Positions 8,839 to 57,319 of a stretch of 64,000 nucleotides of DNA are shown piece by piece. Source of the DNA: Terriglobia bacterium (GTDB taxonomy: Bacteria; Acidobacteriota; Terriglobia; Terriglobales; Acidobacteriaceae); NCBI GenBank assembly GCA_020073385.1, contig JAIQFH010000002.1, positions 186,001 to 250,000 on the forward strand, given 5' to 3'. The notes under the pieces are model-generated. The model made no database searches. It saw only the letters and a program-made list of their open reading frames with translations, and was not told the DNA's origin. Within the stretch, counting starts at the first letter, position 1. Each line of letters begins with the position of its first letter. The translations under genes were made by a program, and so were the position numbers.

Positions 8839-9573
8839 ATGACTCCTGCTCGAACAACTCGTCGGCTTCGCGGGCAAACGGCGCTGATCAGTGGGGCTAG
8901 CCGTGGGATCGGCCTTGCGATCGCACGGGCACTGGCTGGCGAAGGCTGCAACCTGATTTTGACGAGCCGCGATGAAAAGGCCCTCAAGAAAATTGGTAGG
9001 GAACTGTCGCGTAAAGACGTGAGGGTCCTCACACATACCTGTGATGTGCGCGATCCGTACTCTGTGGATGATCTCTTCCGCTCGGTTCGACGTGAGTTTC
9101 GACGGCTGGACATCCTGATCAACAATGCGGGAGTCGCTCACGCGAATCTCACAGTGTACAAACTTCCATATCCAGTGTGGAAGGATGTATTCGCCACAAA
9201 CCTGGACGGCACATTCCTGATAACTCAAGCTGCGCTCGCTTTGATTCCACGGGGCGGGACGATTGTGAACAATCTTTCGATCGCCGCCACGCGAGTCTTC
9301 GCGGGGTCCGCCGCTTATAACGCCTCCAAGCACGGTGCTCTTGGCTTCACGAACACGCTGCGGGAGGAACTTCGTCCCCGGGGAATTCGTGTGATCGGAC
9401 TTTTCCCTGGCGCGACCGACACTGATATCTGGAAGACGCTCTGGCCCGAGGCACCGCGCAGGAAGATGATGTCGAGCGTGACAGTGGCAAGGGCTGTTGT
9501 CAACGCGGTCGTTTTGCCAGCGAACGCGACCGTGGAAACTTTGGAGATTCTGCCTAGCAGCGGCGCCCTTTAG
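8839..9573 (+). CDS. Short-chain dehydrogenase/reductase (SDR)
   Basis: A classical SDR of 244 residues and Rossmann fold. It has the cofactor motif ISGASRGIGLAIA near residue 21, CDVRDP, LINNAGVAH (NNAG) and the catalytic pair of Ser in NNLSIAA with Tyr-Lys in AAYNASKHG, so it should be an active NAD(P)-dependent oxidoreductase. TSRDEKA after the second strand favours NADP(H). The substrate is not evident. Because GTP cyclohydrolase and PTPS genes lie 1-2 kb upstream, a sepiapterin-reductase-like role is possible but unproven. ATG 8839 is preferred over GTG 8827 because it is close to the core and the upstream DNA is repeat-derived. Confidence 0.88.
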   Translation: MTPARTTRRLRGQTALISGASRGIGLAIARALAGEGCNLILTSRDEKALKKIGRELSRKDVRVLTHTCDVRDPYSVDDLFRSVRREFRRLDILINNAGVAHANLTVYKLPYPVWKDVFATNLDGTFLITQAALALIPRGGTIVNNLSIAATRVFAGSAAYNASKHGALGFTNTLREELRPRGIRVIGLFPGATDTDIWKTLWPEAPRRKMMSSVTVARAVVNAVVLPANATVETLEILPSSGAL

Positions 9574-9669
9574 TCAACGCATAGGAGGGCGGGGGCACAC
9601 CAATCAGTGCTTTCAGAACGCGAGCGCGGTTGAGAGGGCACGGCTCCCCTTCACTGCGTTCAGGGTCGC

Positions 9670-9697
9670 GGGGCGGACGAAGGCGTCCGCCCCTACA
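9670..9697. repeat. Dispersed palindromic repeat, family A copy 2
   Basis: A stem GGGGCGGACG/CGTCCGCCCC with a short AAGG-type loop is followed by CTACAC. It is the same family as 8792 and lies in the leader region of miaB. Confidence 0.7.
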
Positions 9698-9764
9698 CAA
9701 ACCTTACGCCCCGAGCGGCTTGGCTGCTGGCAGCGGGAGGCTTCCACCGCTATACTGGCTGTAT

Positions 9765-11129
9765 ATGTGTGGGGTTGGGGAACAAAGCGCGCAAAAAACG
9801 TTTTACCTCGAGACCTTCGGCTGCCAGATGAACGTCCATGACTCCGAAAAGGTCGTGGGGACGCTGGTGCAGGAAGGATATCGGCAGGTGGAGACGGTCG
9901 AGCAGGCCGATCTCATCCTCTACAACACATGTTCGATCCGCGATAAGGCGGAGCAGAAAGTCTTCCATCGGCTGGCGGATTTCAAGAAGCTGCAGGCGCA
10001 AGGGAAGAAATTCGGCGTGCTCGGCTGCGTGGCGCAGCAGGAAGGCGAGAAGATTTTTGAGCGCGCGCCGCATGTGTCGTTGGTGTGCGGTTCTGCGTCT
10101 TATCGAAACCTGCCCAGCATGCTGGTGCAACTGGAAGCAGGGAAGTCCCCTGCCGCGGCCACGACTCCGGTTCGCATCACGGGACTCGATGACCGCCAGA
10201 CTGAGGAGTGTTTCGAGACGGAGTTCACCGCCCGGACTAATCCGCATCGCGGGTACATCACGATCATTGAAGGATGCGACAAGTTTTGCGCCTACTGCGT
10301 GGTGCCGTTTACGCGGGGAAGAGAACGCAGCCGGACATCGGAATCGGTGTTGGTCGAGGCGCGGCAGATGGCCGAGATGGGATATACGGAGATCCAACTG
10401 CTCGGGCAGAATGTGAATTCTTATCGCGATCCTACTGGAAAAAAGTCATTTGCGGAGTTGCTGGCTGCAGTGGGCGAGGTTTGCGGCATCAGGCGGGTGC
10501 GGTTCACCACTTCGCATCCCCGCGACTTTGGGCGTGACATTATCGAAGCCATCGACGCTGTTCCCACGCTTTGCGACCATGTGCATCTGCCCGTCCAGAG
10601 CGGCTCTACGCGTATTCTCGAGGCCATGCAGCGGTTGTACGCGCGCGACGAGTACATGGAGCGGATTGCCTGGATAAAGGCTGCGAAACGGGAAATCAGC
10701 ATCACAACCGATGTCATCGTGGGCTTTCCGGGAGAGACGGAGTCTGATTTTTCTGAAACTCTGAATTTGCTCGACGAGGTGGGCTACGACGGCGTGTTCT
10801 CGTTCAAGTATTCGGCGCGGCCGAATACTCCGGCGTTGAATCTGGACGATGCTATCCCGGAGGAGGAGAAATCGCGCCGTCTGGAAGTTCTGATGGCGAA
10901 GCAGCGGGAGATTCAGATATCGCGCTACAAAAAATATGTCGGGCAGCGATGTGAAGTAATGGTTGAAGGTAAGAATCCGGCGCGCGGGCAGTGGATTGGC
11001 CGTACCTCGCAGAACAAAACGCTGAACTTCACGGCGGGAGGATCACAACAGCCCACGGTAGGAAGCTACGCGCCGGTGCTGGTTACCGCAAGTTTTCCCA
11101 ATAGCCTGGTCGGCGAACTGGTAATGTAG
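9765..11129 (+). CDS. miaB: tRNA-2-methylthio-N6-dimethylallyladenosine synthase
   Basis: MiaB is a radical-SAM methylthiotransferase that adds the 2-methylthio group to i6A37 of tRNAs reading U-starting codons. The 454-residue protein has the N-terminal UPF0004 domain with its three cluster cysteines (TFGCQMN, NTCSIRD, GCVAQQ). It then has the radical-SAM CxxxCxxC as EGCDKFCAYCVVPFTRGRERS, and a C-terminal TRAM domain (GQRCEVMVEGKN to VGELVM). ATG 9765 places the start just before QKTFYLETFGCQMN, as usual for MiaB; the longer frame upstream runs through repeat DNA. The motif DKFCAYCVVPFTRG favours MiaB over RimO or MtaB. The BFN gene follows after 18 bp, so the two are probably co-transcribed. 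Confidence 0.95.
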   Translation: MCGVGEQSAQKTFYLETFGCQMNVHDSEKVVGTLVQEGYRQVETVEQADLILYNTCSIRDKAEQKVFHRLADFKKLQAQGKKFGVLGCVAQQEGEKIFERAPHVSLVCGSASYRNLPSMLVQLEAGKSPAAATTPVRITGLDDRQTEECFETEFTARTNPHRGYITIIEGCDKFCAYCVVPFTRGRERSRTSESVLVEARQMAEMGYTEIQLLGQNVNSYRDPTGKKSFAELLAAVGEVCGIRRVRFTTSHPRDFGRDIIEAIDAVPTLCDHVHLPVQSGSTRILEAMQRLYARDEYMERIAWIKAAKREISITTDVIVGFPGETESDFSETLNLLDEVGYDGVFSFKYSARPNTPALNLDDAIPEEEKSRRLEVLMAKQREIQISRYKKYVGQRCEVMVEGKNPARGQWIGRTSQNKTLNFTAGGSQQPTVGSYAPVLVTASFPNSLVGELVM

Positions 11130-16421: not shown

Positions 16422-16895
16422 CTACCCTTCTACAAATTTCTTCAACATCTCGACGACTCCGGGCCAGCCTCCCGTGTAGTCCTTGCGGGCGACGGGCAGA
16501 TTACTGAGGCCGCTGTGCGTGACTCTTACATGCGTGCCGCTTCCCTTTTGCGTGAGTTCCCAACGCACGACGGTGCTGCTCTTGGGATCGTCATGCCAGT
16601 TTGCGATCCAGGTGTAAACGAGCAAGCGCGGCGGGTCGCATTCGAGAATTTTTCCCCGGCATTCGAACTCACTGATTCCGTTCACTACGATCGATCCTTT
16701 CTGGGTCGCGTACGAATAGTGTCCTCCGACGCGGGCGTCCATCTTCCAGAACTTCACCGGGCATTCGGGGCCGGTGAACCAGCGCTGGAGTTCATCGGCG
16801 TCAGTGAGAGCTTTAAACACGCGTTCCGCAGGCGCAGCGATCTGAATCTCGCTGACAATCGCGTCTTGACTGGGCGTAATGATCGTTGTGGGCAT
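16422..16895 (-). CDS. AHSA1/SRPBCC-domain protein 2
   Basis: A paralogue of the neighbouring SRPBCC gene, 157 residues. It shows IQIAAPAERVFKALTDADELQRWF, KMDARVGGHYSYA, RGKILECDPPRLLVYTWIANW, TVVRWELTQKGSGTHVRVTHSGL and the end DYTGGWPGVVEMLKKFVE. The protein is cytoplasmic with no signal. It starts with ATG 16895 behind GGAGGAA, a strong ribosome-binding site. Upstream, between this gene and the secreted-protein gene, lies a short piece homologous to its own C-terminus (16911-16999), showing that a third copy was lost from this operon. Confidence 0.9.
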   Translation of the reverse strand: MPTTIITPSQDAIVSEIQIAAPAERVFKALTDADELQRWFTGPECPVKFWKMDARVGGHYSYATQKGSIVVNGISEFECRGKILECDPPRLLVYTWIANWHDDPKSSTVVRWELTQKGSGTHVRVTHSGLSNLPVARKDYTGGWPGVVEMLKKFVEG

Positions 16896-16910
16896 GAATA
16901 TTCCTCCGGG

Positions 16911-16999
16911 CTATTTCTCGGAAAATGTCTTTTAGTTCCTGCAGCACACCGGACCATCCGCCCGCGTACTCTTTGCAGGCTGGCGAGCCGGTAAGATGC
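16911..16999 (-). pseudogene. C-terminal remnant of a third AHSA1/SRPBCC gene
   Basis: Read on the minus strand this stretch encodes HLTGSPACKEYAGGWSGVLQ followed by ELKDIFREIA. It matches the tails of the two SRPBCC neighbours (for example ARKDYTGGWPGVVEMLKKF). No start or N-terminal domain is present. It fills the gap between the secreted-protein gene and the intact SRPBCC gene and is best read as a deletion scar of a tandem paralogue. Confidence 0.7.
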
Positions 17000-17005
17000 C
17001 GGGCG

Positions 17006-17518
17006 CTACGATTTGCGATGCAAGTCGAAGACTTCCTTGTGCTCTTTGCCGTGGTCAACGAACGTCCATTCTTCCGAGTGATGGCTGTCATCGATCATGG
17101 TCAGCACCATTTTCTGCATGTGCCCGGCGTCGGGACTTGCCAGATTGGTCGCGTCCACGTACGTGAAGGTAATCACTTTACCGTCGGGCGAGAGGCTGGC
17201 CTGCATGCGGGGTTGGTTCCCCGCGGCACAATAGTGCGTCAGCAGCAGGCGGTTCGGTCCGTCGAGATGGAACATGGAAATCATGTCCTCGTTCGGTACG
17301 AGGATTTCGCTCTGCACGGCCGATCCTCCGGCGGTGACTTTGAATGTGACCTGGAAGGCGTGCCCGTCGGGGCCTTTGCCTTCCCAGGTACCCGGCATGT
17401 TCTTGATTGCGTTGAATGCTTTTTGAGCGTCGGTCTGAGCATAGGCCGCGGCGGCCAGTGCCGCAAAGGCGATCAGGATGCGGGTTGAGGTACGAGTGCG
17501 GTTCGTCAGTTTCGTCAT
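17006..17518 (-). CDS. Exported protein of unknown function, lipocalin-like beta protein
   Basis: This 170-residue protein starts at ATG 17518 with a GGAAAACTC site upstream. It has a signal peptide (ILIAFAALAAAAYAQ) and a mature domain with alternating beta-strands (MPGTWEGKGPDGHAFQVTFK, RLLLTHYCAAG, KVITFTYVDATNL, HHSEEWTFVDHGKE). The pattern W-G-G plus repeated strands recalls DUF1579/lipocalin-like proteins, but I do not assign a family with certainty. It is the second gene of the ArsR-led operon. Expression is therefore probably controlled with the SRPBCC genes. Function unknown. Confidence 0.8.
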   Translation of the reverse strand: MTKLTNRTRTSTRILIAFAALAAAAYAQTDAQKAFNAIKNMPGTWEGKGPDGHAFQVTFKVTAGGSAVQSEILVPNEDMISMFHLDGPNRLLLTHYCAAGNQPRMQASLSPDGKVITFTYVDATNLASPDAGHMQKMVLTMIDDSHHSEEWTFVDHGKEHKEVFDLHRKS

Positions 17519-17561
17519 AGGAGTTTTCCTTTCTATGGACGGAAATATCCGTCGCGAATTC

Positions 17562-17942
17562 TCATTTGGGCTTGCGGGAGTCAACTTCCAGTTCCCGTGC
17601 GTACTCGGATTCCACAAAAGATTTCAGATTGTTCAGGCTCGCGGTCCAGAATTGGCGGTACTGCTCGATCCAGGAGTCGACGGCGCGCAGAGGTTCCGGA
17701 TTGAGTTGATACACACGATGGCGGCCTTCCCTGTGCTCGCGCACCAGGTGAGCACGGCGCAGCAAACGCAAGTGCTTCGAGATGGCCGGGCGGGAAACCG
17801 GAAATGCGCTGGCGATCTGTCCCGCAGGCTGCGCGCCACGTCTCAGGAGATCGAGAACGGCGCGGCGGGTCGGATCGGCGAGAGCTTGAAAGGTGGCTTC
17901 GTTATGCCGGGCCGGCGAATATGTAACCGAACGGTGACGCAT
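17562..17942 (-). CDS. ArsR/SmtB-family transcriptional regulator
   Basis: A 126-residue winged-helix repressor: FQALADPTRRAVLDLLRRGAQPAGQIAS, then the recognition helix VSRPAISKHLRLLRRAHLVREHREGRHRVYQL and a helical tail. The metal-box cysteines of ArsR/SmtB (CxC in helix 3) are missing, so it belongs to the non-metal SRPBCC-linked subgroup that senses other signals. It heads the minus-strand operon with the secreted, SRPBCC and DinB genes. Palindromes at 17923-17938 and 17946-17965 flank its start codon, suggesting autorepression. Confidence 0.93.
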   Translation of the reverse strand: MRHRSVTYSPARHNEATFQALADPTRRAVLDLLRRGAQPAGQIASAFPVSRPAISKHLRLLRRAHLVREHREGRHRVYQLNPEPLRAVDSWIEQYRQFWTASLNNLKSFVESEYARELEVDSRKPK

Positions 17943-18008: not shown

Positions 18009-18620
18009 TTAGCGCTTGCCGTCTGAGACCAAATCCAGGAATACCTGGTGGACGCGGGGATCGTCGCTGAGCTCGGGATGAAAAGTTGCAGCCATGGCTC
18101 TTCCCTGCCGGACAGCCACGGGATCACTGCCCTCGGTAGCGAGCACTTCGACTCCATGGCCAACGTGCACGATCTTGGGGGCACGGATGAAGACCATCTC
18201 GAGCGCGGAGTGATCAAGCGAGGAATTGGTGTCGCTCTTCAGCGCATGGTGAAGGTCGGTCACAAACTTCCCTTCCCGGATGGAACTGTCGATCTGGCGT
18301 CCGTAGGCGTTGCGGCGGATGCGGATATTGAGGGCACCGAGTCCAGCCTGCGGAGGGTTCTCGACTTCGGAGGCCAGCAGAATTGCGCCGGCGCACGTGC
18401 CGAACGTAGGCTTGGCCTTAACAAATTGCTTTAACTTTTCAAATCCGGCGTCGCCAAGGAGTTTGAGGAACGTGCCAGACTCTCCACCCGGGATGATCAG
18501 ACCGTCGATCTGATCGAGTTGTTCGGGTTTTTTGACGAGCATAACTTCGGCGCCCAGCTCTTCGAGCCGGCGGCGGTGAGCGTCAAAATCGCCCTGCAGG
18601 GCTAGGACTCCGATGATCAT
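18009..18620 (-). CDS. pdxT: Pyridoxal 5'-phosphate synthase glutaminase subunit
   Basis: PdxT hydrolyses glutamine and channels ammonia to PdxS for PLP synthesis in the DXP-independent route. The 203-residue protein shows IGVLALQGDFDAHRRRLEELG, IDGLIIPGGESGTFLKLL, the nucleophile Cys in FGTCAGAILLA and the catalytic His-Glu in ATFHPELSDD. An unusual point is S/L variation: the loop reads PGGESGTFLKL instead of the common PGGESTT. Start ATG 18620 matches the conserved MxIGVLALQG; the upstream 54 bases are repeat DNA. Its partner pdxS lies upstream on the same strand but is separated by a RAYT unit (18868-19602), so co-transcription is probably disturbed. Confidence 0.94.
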   Translation of the reverse strand: MIIGVLALQGDFDAHRRRLEELGAEVMLVKKPEQLDQIDGLIIPGGESGTFLKLLGDAGFEKLKQFVKAKPTFGTCAGAILLASEVENPPQAGLGALNIRIRRNAYGRQIDSSIREGKFVTDLHHALKSDTNSSLDHSALEMVFIRAPKIVHVGHGVEVLATEGSDPVAVRQGRAMAATFHPELSDDPRVHQVFLDLVSDGKR

Positions 18621-18938
18621 TACGAGGTCGTTGGTCGTTCGTCGTTGGCCCTTCGCCACGACGACATCCACCATTGATTTTAGCGGATATTGCGGCGCAG
18701 GCTAGAGATGGCCATCCGCGTAGGCCAAACTTCAAGGGACACGATCATTTGGCCCACAACCGCACGACCCAGGGTGAACGATCGTGAGTGATCGGCAGGA
18801 CGATGGTCAGCGCAATGCTGGGCTAGCGATTTCCAGAATGGGAAATTCAGAGGAGATATTTCGACTTGGGTGGCGCCGCGCTTTCAGCGCTGCGATGAGG
18901 TTGGGAGTGGTTGGCGGCTTCAGCCGCTGAGGTGCATC
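18621..18938. other. Gene-free stretch between pdxT and the RAYT gene
   Basis: These 318 bases hold the GTCGTT repeat at the pdxT side and unremarkable sequence to about 18860. From 18868 a REP-like palindrome follows (GGGTGGCGCCGCGC...GCGCTGCGAT), then a second motif GGCGGCTTCAGCCGCTGAGG that ends right before the transposase ATG. No gene is visible. Confidence 0.7.
18623..18658. repeat. GTCGTTG-type short tandem repeat
   Basis: Repeats of TCGTTGGTCGTTCGTCGTTGG sit directly upstream of the pdxT start. Similar GTCGTT/AACGAC tracts occur at 38071-38105, 38211-38245 and 49908-49940. Confidence 0.6.
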
Positions 18939-18940
18939 AT
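18868..18940. repeat. Left REP-like end of the RAYT unit
   Basis: It contains GGGTGGCGCCGCGCTTTCAG and the stem GCGCTTTCAGCGC, followed by a second stem GCGGCTTCAGCCGC. The outer part is matched in inverted orientation at 19573-19602 at the other end of the unit. Confidence 0.75.
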
Positions 18941-19415
18941 GGCTGCTCCTCCTCGCGGAAACACCGGACACGGTTGTTATTTCATCACGGCTTCCACATT
19001 TCAAAAGCGACAACTGCTGCAGTCGGATCGAATGAGGCACCTCTTTCTCAATGTTCTCTTTCATTATCGGGAGCAACAGAAATATCTGCTGCATGATTTT
19101 GTGCTGATGCCGGACCACTTCCATCTGCTGATCACCCCCATTGCGACTTTGGAGAGAGCCATGCAGTTTATTAAAGGCGGATTCTCATTTCGTGCGAAGC
19201 GAGAACTCGGATTCGTGCATGAGATCTGGCAGCCCAGCTACTATGACCGGCGAGTGAGAGATGCGGAGGAGTTCTTCGCTTTCCGTGAATATACTCGGCA
19301 GAACCCGGTGAAGAAGGGACTGGTGCGGGTTGCTGAAGACTATCAGTATGGTTCCGCGTGGCCTGAGTATCAGTTGGATGCTGTTTTGGAAAAGGTCGCT
19401 GAGGTTGGCGCCTGA
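18939..19415 (+). CDS. REP-associated tyrosine transposase (RAYT, IS200/Y1 family)
   Basis: RAYTs are single-copy Y1 HUH transposases associated with REP palindromes. The 158-residue protein has CYFITASTFQKRQLLQ, the HUH motif in LMPDHFHLLITP, the tyrosine helix region EIWQPSYYDRRVRDAEEF and the C-terminal REYTRQNPVKKGLV. All catalytic elements are present. ATG 18939 follows the REP motif at once. Palindromes lie on both sides (18868-18940 and 19440-19602), the outer ones in inverted orientation. The unit sits between pdxS and pdxT, on the opposite strand. Confidence 0.92.
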   Translation: MAAPPRGNTGHGCYFITASTFQKRQLLQSDRMRHLFLNVLFHYREQQKYLLHDFVLMPDHFHLLITPIATLERAMQFIKGGFSFRAKRELGFVHEIWQPSYYDRRVRDAEEFFAFREYTRQNPVKKGLVRVAEDYQYGSAWPEYQLDAVLEKVAEVGA

Positions 19416-19439
19416 ATGAAAGTTTCGCAAGGGTGAATG

Positions 19440-19602
19440 GGTTTGGGTGGCGCAGCGCTTAAGCGCTGCGATCTGGGTCTGGAAAAGAGTAGGGCTTCAG
19501 CCCCTGAGGTTTGGCGGAAAGGTGGAGTGCACCTCACCGGCTAAAGCCGTCTGAATGTGTGGGTGCGTGAATCGCAGCGCTGGAAGCGCTGCGCCACCCA
19601 AT
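19440..19602. repeat. REP/BIME-like palindromes downstream of the RAYT gene
   Basis: Four stem-loops follow: GGCGCAGCGC-TTAA-GCGCTGCG (19446-19470), a GGGCTTCAGCCCCTGAGG motif near 19490, its inverted counterpart CCTCACCGGCTAAAGCCG near 19530, and CGCAGCGCTGGAAGCGCTGCG plus CCACCC at 19573-19602. Paired REPs in opposite orientation are the BIME layout known from RAYT systems. Confidence 0.78.
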
Positions 19603-19610
19603 GGCCTCTT

Positions 19611-20534
19611 CTACCAGCCTCGGGTCTGCAGCATATGCGCTTCGTCTAAGCCGCTCACGGCGAGGCCTTTCATCGCGCCCTCCAGGTTTTCACTGACTTC
19701 AAGTAATACTTTAGGGTCTTGGTAATGGGTGGCGGCCTGAACGATGGCGCGAGCTCTCTTCTCGGCTTCGGCGGGATCGGCGAACGTCGTCGAATCCTTC
19801 ATGAAGATACCTGAGCCCACGAAGACGGCTTCGGCTCCGAGTTGCATCACCAGACTTGCGTCCGCCGGCGTGGCGATTCCTCCCGCGCTGAAATTCGGGA
19901 CGGGGAGCTTCCCTGCTTTCGCGACCATCTTGATCAGTTCGTAGGGGGCCTGGTGCTCTTTGGCCTTGGCGTAGAGTTCTTCCTCGCCTAGCACTGTGAG
20001 GATTTTCATCTCCTGCACGATCTGGCGGATGTGCTTGACGGCGTGGACCACGTCTCCGGTGCCGGCTTCGCCTTTGGTGCGGATCATGGCGGCGCCTTCG
20101 GCGATGCGGCGCAGGGCTTCTCCGAGATTGCGCGCGCCACAGACGAACGGCGTCTTGAAGGCGTGCTTGTCGACGTGATGAGCTTCGTCGGCGGGGGTAA
20201 GCACTTCGGATTCGTCGATGTAGTCGACGCCGAGTTCCTGCAGGATCTGGGCTTCGGCGAAGTGTCCGATGCGGCACTTGGCCATGACCGGGATCGACAC
20301 GGCAGCCATAATCTCGCGAATCTTTTTGGGGCTCGCCATGCGGGCGACGCCGCCTTCGGCGCGGATCTGCGCGGGCACGCGCTCGAGGGCCATCACGGAG
20401 ACGGCTCCCGCTTTTTCAGCGATGACGGCCTGCTCGGCGTTGGTGACGTCCATGATGACGCCGCCCTTGAGCATCTCGGCGAGGCCGGTCTTGAGGCGGA
20501 GAGAAGTGGTGTTGTTGCCGTTGTTCTGCGACAT
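19611..20534 (-). CDS. pdxS: Pyridoxal 5'-phosphate synthase lyase subunit
   Basis: PdxS condenses ribose 5-phosphate, glyceraldehyde 3-phosphate and ammonia to PLP. The 307-residue protein is very conserved: [70 protein letters not shown], the second active-site Lys in [11 protein letters not shown], and [17 protein letters not shown] with [17 protein letters not shown] 20534 is chosen because a short variable N-terminal tail precedes [13 protein letters not shown] as in relatives. The glutaminase gene pdxT follows on the same strand almost 1 kb later, with a transposase unit between them. Confidence 0.97.
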
Positions 20535-20724
20535 GTGAGGAACCCTGTGGATACCTTTTCGCAATCGCGAAGAATGAGCCGTCAGCTTTCAGCCCCTTCG
20601 CCTTTCGACTCAGGGCAGGCTAGAAGCAGCTCTCAGCTAACCCTAACTTTGATGATTCTGGGAGGGGTTTCGCCGCTGATTCATTCTAACGCCCGGAGAG
20701 GATTTGCGGAACCCCGATCCGGCT

Positions 20725-57017: not shown

Positions 57018-57319
57018 CAGGAAAGCAGTTGTAGATGCGCCAATCTGGCCTTGATTGGGTTTCGGAGGCGCCTTCTCTCATAGATGGTTGGTTTTGAAAG
57101 GGCGCGGTTTCCAGCCGCGTCGTCGAGGGCGAGAAAAACACTCTGGCTTTAGCCGCTGGAGCGGAGTCGCTAAGCCGCCTCAGCGCCTGTTCATCATCGG
57201 GGAGTCGTTCACCCAAGCTCTCGGTCAACCGCAGGGTTCAGTGAGTGGTAATGCCTGTTTGCAGCAGTCGGGTTGCCGATGACTACCACTTAGGAAATAA
57301 TGCGGACGAGGCGTTCGGA
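57018..57319. other. Gene-free stretch with REP-like palindromes
   Basis: About 300 bases between the peroxidase and DoxX genes. It holds GGGCGCGGTTTCCAGCCGCG (57101 on), CTCTGGCTTTAGCCGCTGGAG (57140 on) and a GCTAAGCCGCCTCAGCG motif; these resemble the REP motifs beside the RAYT gene (18868-19602). No gene is seen. Confidence 0.6.

Follow-up and report, generated by a model that had tools for sequence, protein, structure and literature searches.

RAYTs are held to be transposases that copy REPs while being themselves immobile. They are described as single-copy, vertically inherited genes in the available text of PMC8049555, and that of PMC3686654, on Pseudomonas and Stenotrophomonas, traces their orthology by synteny, finds a few copies at novel sites and reports that REP abundance follows RAYT presence. 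According to the accessible portion of PMC8266576, GTAG guides the cleavage, and a variant with GTGG is cut at other dinucleotides. Within the Acidobacteria, the part of PMC3733652 at hand describes RAYT-like genes flanked by terminal inverted repeats (TIRYT/TIRtron) in Koribacter and Terriglobus. A search for literature on transposases in Candidatus Sulfotelmatobacter found no paper, and the matches listed for pdxS and pdxT appear, as far as their available text goes, to contain no report of a separation of the two genes in Acidobacteria.

Here we describe a REP-RAYT unit from this genus, found in a stretch of 64,000 nucleotides (the window). On the minus strand of the window lie pdxS, encoding the lyase subunit of pyridoxal 5'-phosphate synthase (19611-20534; above the cut-offs of NF003215 and of TIGR00343, the latter with 447 bits against 438), and pdxT, encoding the glutaminase subunit (18009-18620; TIGR03800, 200.5 bits against 105.55). 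We place the start of pdxT at ATG 18620, as relatives align from residue 1 in tblastn. The 990-bp gap between the two genes, which is the interval singled out by a first-pass annotation, holds one gene on the opposite strand. That annotation had read it as an intact Y1 transposase gene with REP-like palindromes on both sides, the outer ones inverted, and this anatomy is borne out. The frame (18939-19415, plus strand, 158 aa) begins at ATG 18939 and not at an upstream GTG, and its product passes NF047646, REP-associated tyrosine transposase (100.5 bits, cut-off 80), and Pfam Y1_Tnp (31.9 bits, cut-off 23). NF047646 is also passed by seven relatives from the same subfamily (88-104 bits) and by C101, a paralogue from the window's own genome (113 bits). 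The best match by sequence among solved structures is TnpA-REP (4er8, E 7e-7), and an alignment of 12 copies places the catalytic residues at H60-F61-H62 (the HUH motif), Tyr118 and Asn122; the copy in genome G014 has HFY at this place. An IS200/IS605 insertion sequence was considered and rejected, with NF033573 scoring 22.2 bits against a cut-off of 55 and the unit being single-copy: the one full-length match in this genome is the window itself. The genome has 7 Y1_Tnp genes in all.

The REP unit is about 74 nt long and consists of a TTGGGTGG foot, then hairpin 1 and hairpin 2 with a variable spacer between them, then GAGGT. One such unit precedes the gene (18863-18936, plus strand), with 2 nt between it and the RAYT ATG. 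Two follow it, one in direct orientation (19440-19513, plus strand) and one inverted (19528-19604, minus strand), which together form an inverted, REPIN-like doublet, and the last stops 6 bp short of the pdxS stop codon. The outer palindromes (18866-18896 and 19571-19601, 31 nt) are inverted relative to each other and 94% complementary, with a third, direct copy at 19443. The GTGG foot adjoins hairpin 1 in 13/13 aligned units from 11 genomes, and hairpin 1 pairs throughout these units except for one mismatch and one gap; 2 of its 13 pairs are altered on both sides with pairing kept. Outside the 5' REP unit lies a further block (18822-18862, plus strand; TTCC..GGAA, about 18 nt, T-rich end), defined by a profile of 11 units and also found with RAYT units at other addresses. 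This outer 5' block is weak in the window genome, where it scores 16.5 bits as a training member of the profile and 20 of 40 when left out. Rfam at gathering scores gave no match between 17500 and 21500.

REPs of this class are dispersed through the genome, as the first-pass annotation had proposed to check. A covariance model built from the REP units of 11 genomes, in which the window's three units are training members scoring 72-75 bits, finds 64 or more matches in the 8.2-Mb genome at E<=0.001, a lower bound with 108 of 8,422 candidate places scored. By blastn the repeats give 22 matches, and a pattern search allowing up to 3 mismatches reached only 5 places, as loop length varies, hence our use of the covariance model. 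All 45 genus genomes contain matches, again as lower bounds with 108 candidates scored per genome, and REP counts track RAYT counts with a Spearman coefficient of 0.70 (45 genomes, kinship ignored). Genomes with the window's RAYT subfamily hold 23-99 matches and those without it 4-91, so this RAYT is not the only one that serves the REP class; several RAYTs probably do. As a single-strand HUH/Tyr endonuclease, the RAYT may act on GTGG-tagged hairpins and thereby maintain the dispersed REPs. The next match of the model within the window is weak (57091-57165, 19.6 bits) and probably represents a REP that belongs to a different class of RAYT.

By every feature tested, the window unit is a REPtron: the family score, the HUH, Tyr and Asn residues, the inverted GT(A/G)G palindromes, the dispersal of REPs and the single-copy state of the gene were each found. 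Like the REPtrons of E. coli, Pseudomonas and Stenotrophomonas, it combines an NF047646 equivalog carrying HUH and Tyr with GT(A/G)G-tagged palindromes, the outer ones inverted, and with dispersed REPs, one subfamily copy per genome and purifying selection. Unlike those REPtrons, it has an acidobacterial host and a REP unit of about 74 nt with two dissimilar hairpins. It shares with the TIRYT/TIRtron elements its phylum, a Y1 tyrosine transposase, terminal inverted repeats and, for some of them, a dispersed family, as far as the available text of PMC3733652 describes them. However, that description sets its terminal repeats apart from REPs as unrelated, whereas the ends of the window unit are self-complementary, GTGG-tagged hairpins, and we reject TIRYT/TIRtron membership on these grounds. 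With the syntenic RAYT orthogroups of Pseudomonas and Stenotrophomonas it has in common that copies are shared by synteny, that a few lie at novel sites and that REPs follow the RAYT; the accessible part of PMC3686654 reads the novel sites as duplication or horizontal gain, whereas here another address also keeps relics. What is new from this locus is the occurrence of several RAYT addresses together with relics at aspS.

The position of the unit between two genes whose products form one complex led the first-pass annotation to see here an operon caught while being split by the unit. This does not agree with the junctions of other genomes. Of 45 genomes of Candidatus Sulfotelmatobacter, 26 have pdxS and pdxT on one contig, and in 25 of these 26 more than 600 bp, mostly filled by other genes, separates the pair, in most cases without this RAYT. 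The sole short junction is that of G011 (109 bp); the next shortest measures 661 bp, most span 1-11 kb and one reaches 61 kb. Outside the genus, 18 of 24 genomes have both genes on one contig, and the gap is below 200 bp in 17 of them, the exception being G053 with 4.2 kb. Of 80 pdxT loci in a named set that partly coincides with that of the genus, 50 have a same-strand pdxS upstream, and 16 of those gaps are below 200 bp. The genes within the junctions vary by genome with limited recurrence, and RAYT genes or pieces from several subfamilies occur in 12 of 55 distinct junctions. Eighteen of 19 such pieces are antisense to pdxS, a bias that rests on fewer independent cases since many of the pieces are related. 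In G064 (loci L186 and L176), pdxS and pdxT are adjacent but lie on different strands, as an inversion of the junction would have left them.

An intact gene, inverted outer REPs and the lack of a RAYT in the closest relative, G034 (pdxS 99% identical), are features expected of a recent insertion in which the RAYT unit landed between pdxS and pdxT and broke up a working operon. We regard so recent an event as very improbable. The sister comparison proposed in the first-pass annotation does reveal a genome lacking the RAYT, yet instead of an empty junction it has other genes there, over 3,040 bp. Moreover, the window genome has no second near-identical copy, and four further genomes carry the RAYT at the same place and on the same strand, with pS of 0.65-0.79 and pN/pS of 0.14-0.25 among pdx-address pairs (8 computed); across 14 RAYT pairs, pS spans 0.56-0.79 and pN/pS 0.14-0.25. 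With synonymous sites near saturation and pN/pS low, the unit is, judging from sequence divergence, old and constrained. It is also patchy. G034 lacks it despite near-identity in pdxS, so retention of the unit is not stable, and intact copies occupy the junction in 5 of 45 genomes, to which G015 adds a remnant. The first-pass annotation had named an old and fixed arrangement as the finding that would count against it; the arrangement is old without being fixed. The remnant in G015 is a C-terminal RAYT piece containing stops, accompanied by a REP unit, in a genome with a live copy at aspS. An 80-bp direct repeat around the G015 RAYT unit, noted in a self-comparison and considered as a target duplication, turned out to be one more copy of the REP.

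Separation of the pair is associated with a promoter-like motif before pdxT. TA(A/G)AAT, usually inside TCC-nn-TAAAAT-CAA, is present in the 150 nt preceding pdxT at 47 of 63 separated loci (pdxS more than 202 bp away, or none seen upstream on the same strand) versus 1 of 17 close loci (Fisher 3e-7, kinship ignored). Control searches found it in 2/59 windows further upstream and 2/63 on the other strand, and shuffled sequences averaged 3.2, with 9 at most. In G011 the motif is present although the junction is closed (109 bp). No conserved -35 box accompanies the motif among the pdxT loci compared. In the window the motif reads TCCGCTAAAATCAA (18674-18687, minus strand), its TAAAAT beginning 62 nt before the pdxT ATG. 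The first-pass annotation had offered a promoter of its own as one way for pdxT to be expressed, and from the motif we think it very probable that pdxT has one. If pdxT is transcribed in this way, DNA behind pdxS would be tolerated and would turn over, with the RAYT unit as one among many occupants of the junction. We favor, with good though incomplete confidence, a domesticated REPtron that was acquired long ago at an intergenic insertion hotspot extending across the genus, with pdxT on its own promoter. The genomes form a natural series from a closed pair to genes kilobases apart, along which the promoter-like motif goes with separation, and the case is informative about how genes of a shared complex cope with leaving their operon. 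A TAGAAT (20683-20688, minus strand), which precedes the ATG of pdxS by about 149 nt, is a possible -10 of pdxS. The leader of pdxT (18621-18670) contains a small repeat, CAACGACGAACGACCAACGACC, of which 26 bp are identical in G014, with a similar stretch in G015.

The window's RAYT subfamily (58-75% identity) is present as one copy in each of 12 of the 45 genus genomes. Five copies are at the pdxS-pdxT address, all antisense (G000, G005, G014, G029 and G062), and five are convergent with aspS (G015, G020, G026, G036 and G067). Those of G001 and G030 lie beside dnaK and glmS, respectively; aspS, dnaK and glmS are what we take these neighbors to be, having named them by eye from their proteins. 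A single third address for G001 and G030 was considered in view of a common neighbor gene and rejected, as the neighbors are arranged differently, and we count them as separate sites whose surroundings are related. In the RAYT tree, the 12 copies form one clade (100/99), as do the five pdx-address copies (96/94), while G001 and G030 nest with three aspS-address copies (98/97). The AspS tree puts the five pdx hosts in three places (G000 with G034; G005 with G029; G014 with G062), so occupancy of the pdx address requires at least 4 changes, and a three-gene tree holding four of these hosts agrees with it.

One way to account for this distribution is that the genus ancestor had RAYTs at both pdxS and aspS, and that lineages later lost either copy or the two together. 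Each of the two addresses is found in distant lineages, G015 combines a live aspS copy with a decayed remnant between pdxS and pdxT, and the pdx RAYT subtree is in no clear conflict with the AspS tree. Many losses would be required, however, and the G001 and G030 copies, at neither site and nested with aspS ones, mean that some relocation is still needed. We judge such ancestral paralogy plausible at somewhat less than even chances, and hold in similarly guarded terms the associated proposal that the pdx copy arrived before the genus radiated rather than being gained within it. That none of the 45 genomes has two intact subfamily copies is uninformative on this point, given a chance expectation of about 0.6. 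A genus in which one RAYT subfamily occupies several addresses, one of them with relics, opens the immobility of RAYTs to tests by comparative genomics.

The relics lie behind aspS. In G035, this position holds no RAYT and instead a perfect fusion of two REP heads, in which GGGTGGCGCAGCGC is joined through a short loop to GCGCTGCGCCACCC; the exact fused form occurs in 2/45 genomes, G035 and G020, once each and both times behind aspS. Next to the G035 palindrome, on its outside, lie 40 nt that match the outer 5' block of RAYT units, with a score of 28 of 40. Across 46 REP heads outside the training set, taken from portions of the genomes and compared in a fixed register, the other high scores are 35 of 40 in G007 and 28 in G020, the latter belonging to its own displaced 5' REP, and the rest reach at most 21. 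A search with the outer-block profile was too insensitive to detect G035 at E<=1; comparison in the fixed register set it apart. In G007, another gene occupies the place of the RAYT behind aspS. The simplest reading is that G035 and G007 once had the RAYT unit after aspS and then lost it, in G035 by deletion between its inverted REP heads, for which either RAYT action or slippage at the inverted repeat may account. In G007 we also observe that the 3' end of aspS reads in frame into an unrelated frame (L306, 3200-4070; an 885-codon open frame), that the last few AspS residues differ, and that the RAYT 5' REP remains behind aspS.

At pdxS here and at aspS elsewhere, the unit has a core gene next to it whose stop codon is only a few bases from the inverted 3' REP. 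We propose, tentatively and with rather more doubt than conviction, that the unit may relocate whole on rare occasions, as a block bounded by inverted two-hairpin REPs that lands behind the stops of pdxS, aspS or glmS and is lost by deletion between its inverted REP heads. The unit would then point back at the core gene, and the fused palindrome of G035, adjoining the outer block of the unit, would be an excision scar from which the RAYT is gone.

Displaced copies of the pdxS 3' end are found downstream within several junctions: 56 nt in G005 (L105, about 1635-1690), about 144 nt in G014 (L107, about 2201-2306) and 141 nt in G027 (L106, 8060-8209), those of G005 and G014 lying just outside the RAYT unit and that of G027 beyond other DNA. 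Another locus, L265, has 39 nt of pdxS tail. The tails in G005 and G027 are closest to the pdxS of their own host, and that of G014 ties with others. These copies may have arisen by integration of a circle through recombination in pdxS or by local duplication. Such tails are as expected from single-crossover integration of a circle with a pdxS tail, and with the highly variable junction content they raise the prospect that junction pieces including RAYTs pass between species by homologous recombination via the conserved flanking gene, without RAYT transposition. The displaced tails are, however, as near or nearer to the host pdxS as to any other, which also fits local duplication, and there is none in the window; we are inclined to doubt transfer by this route, while according it appreciable weight. 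A duplicated pdxS tail as a general mark of the RAYT was rejected, with none seen in G000 or G029 and one present in G027 where no RAYT of the subfamily lies.

Further features of these junctions are recorded here as side observations. In G062, a tandem array of units of about 128 bp, each a REP head plus spacer, lies between pdxS and the RAYT (L164, about 9394-9824). Pairs of genes that we presume, by eye, to encode an ArsR-type regulator and an SRPBCC/AHSA1-like protein adjoin pdxT in the window (16422-17942), and such pairs also occur within the pdxS-pdxT junctions of G015 (L103) and G033 (L111).
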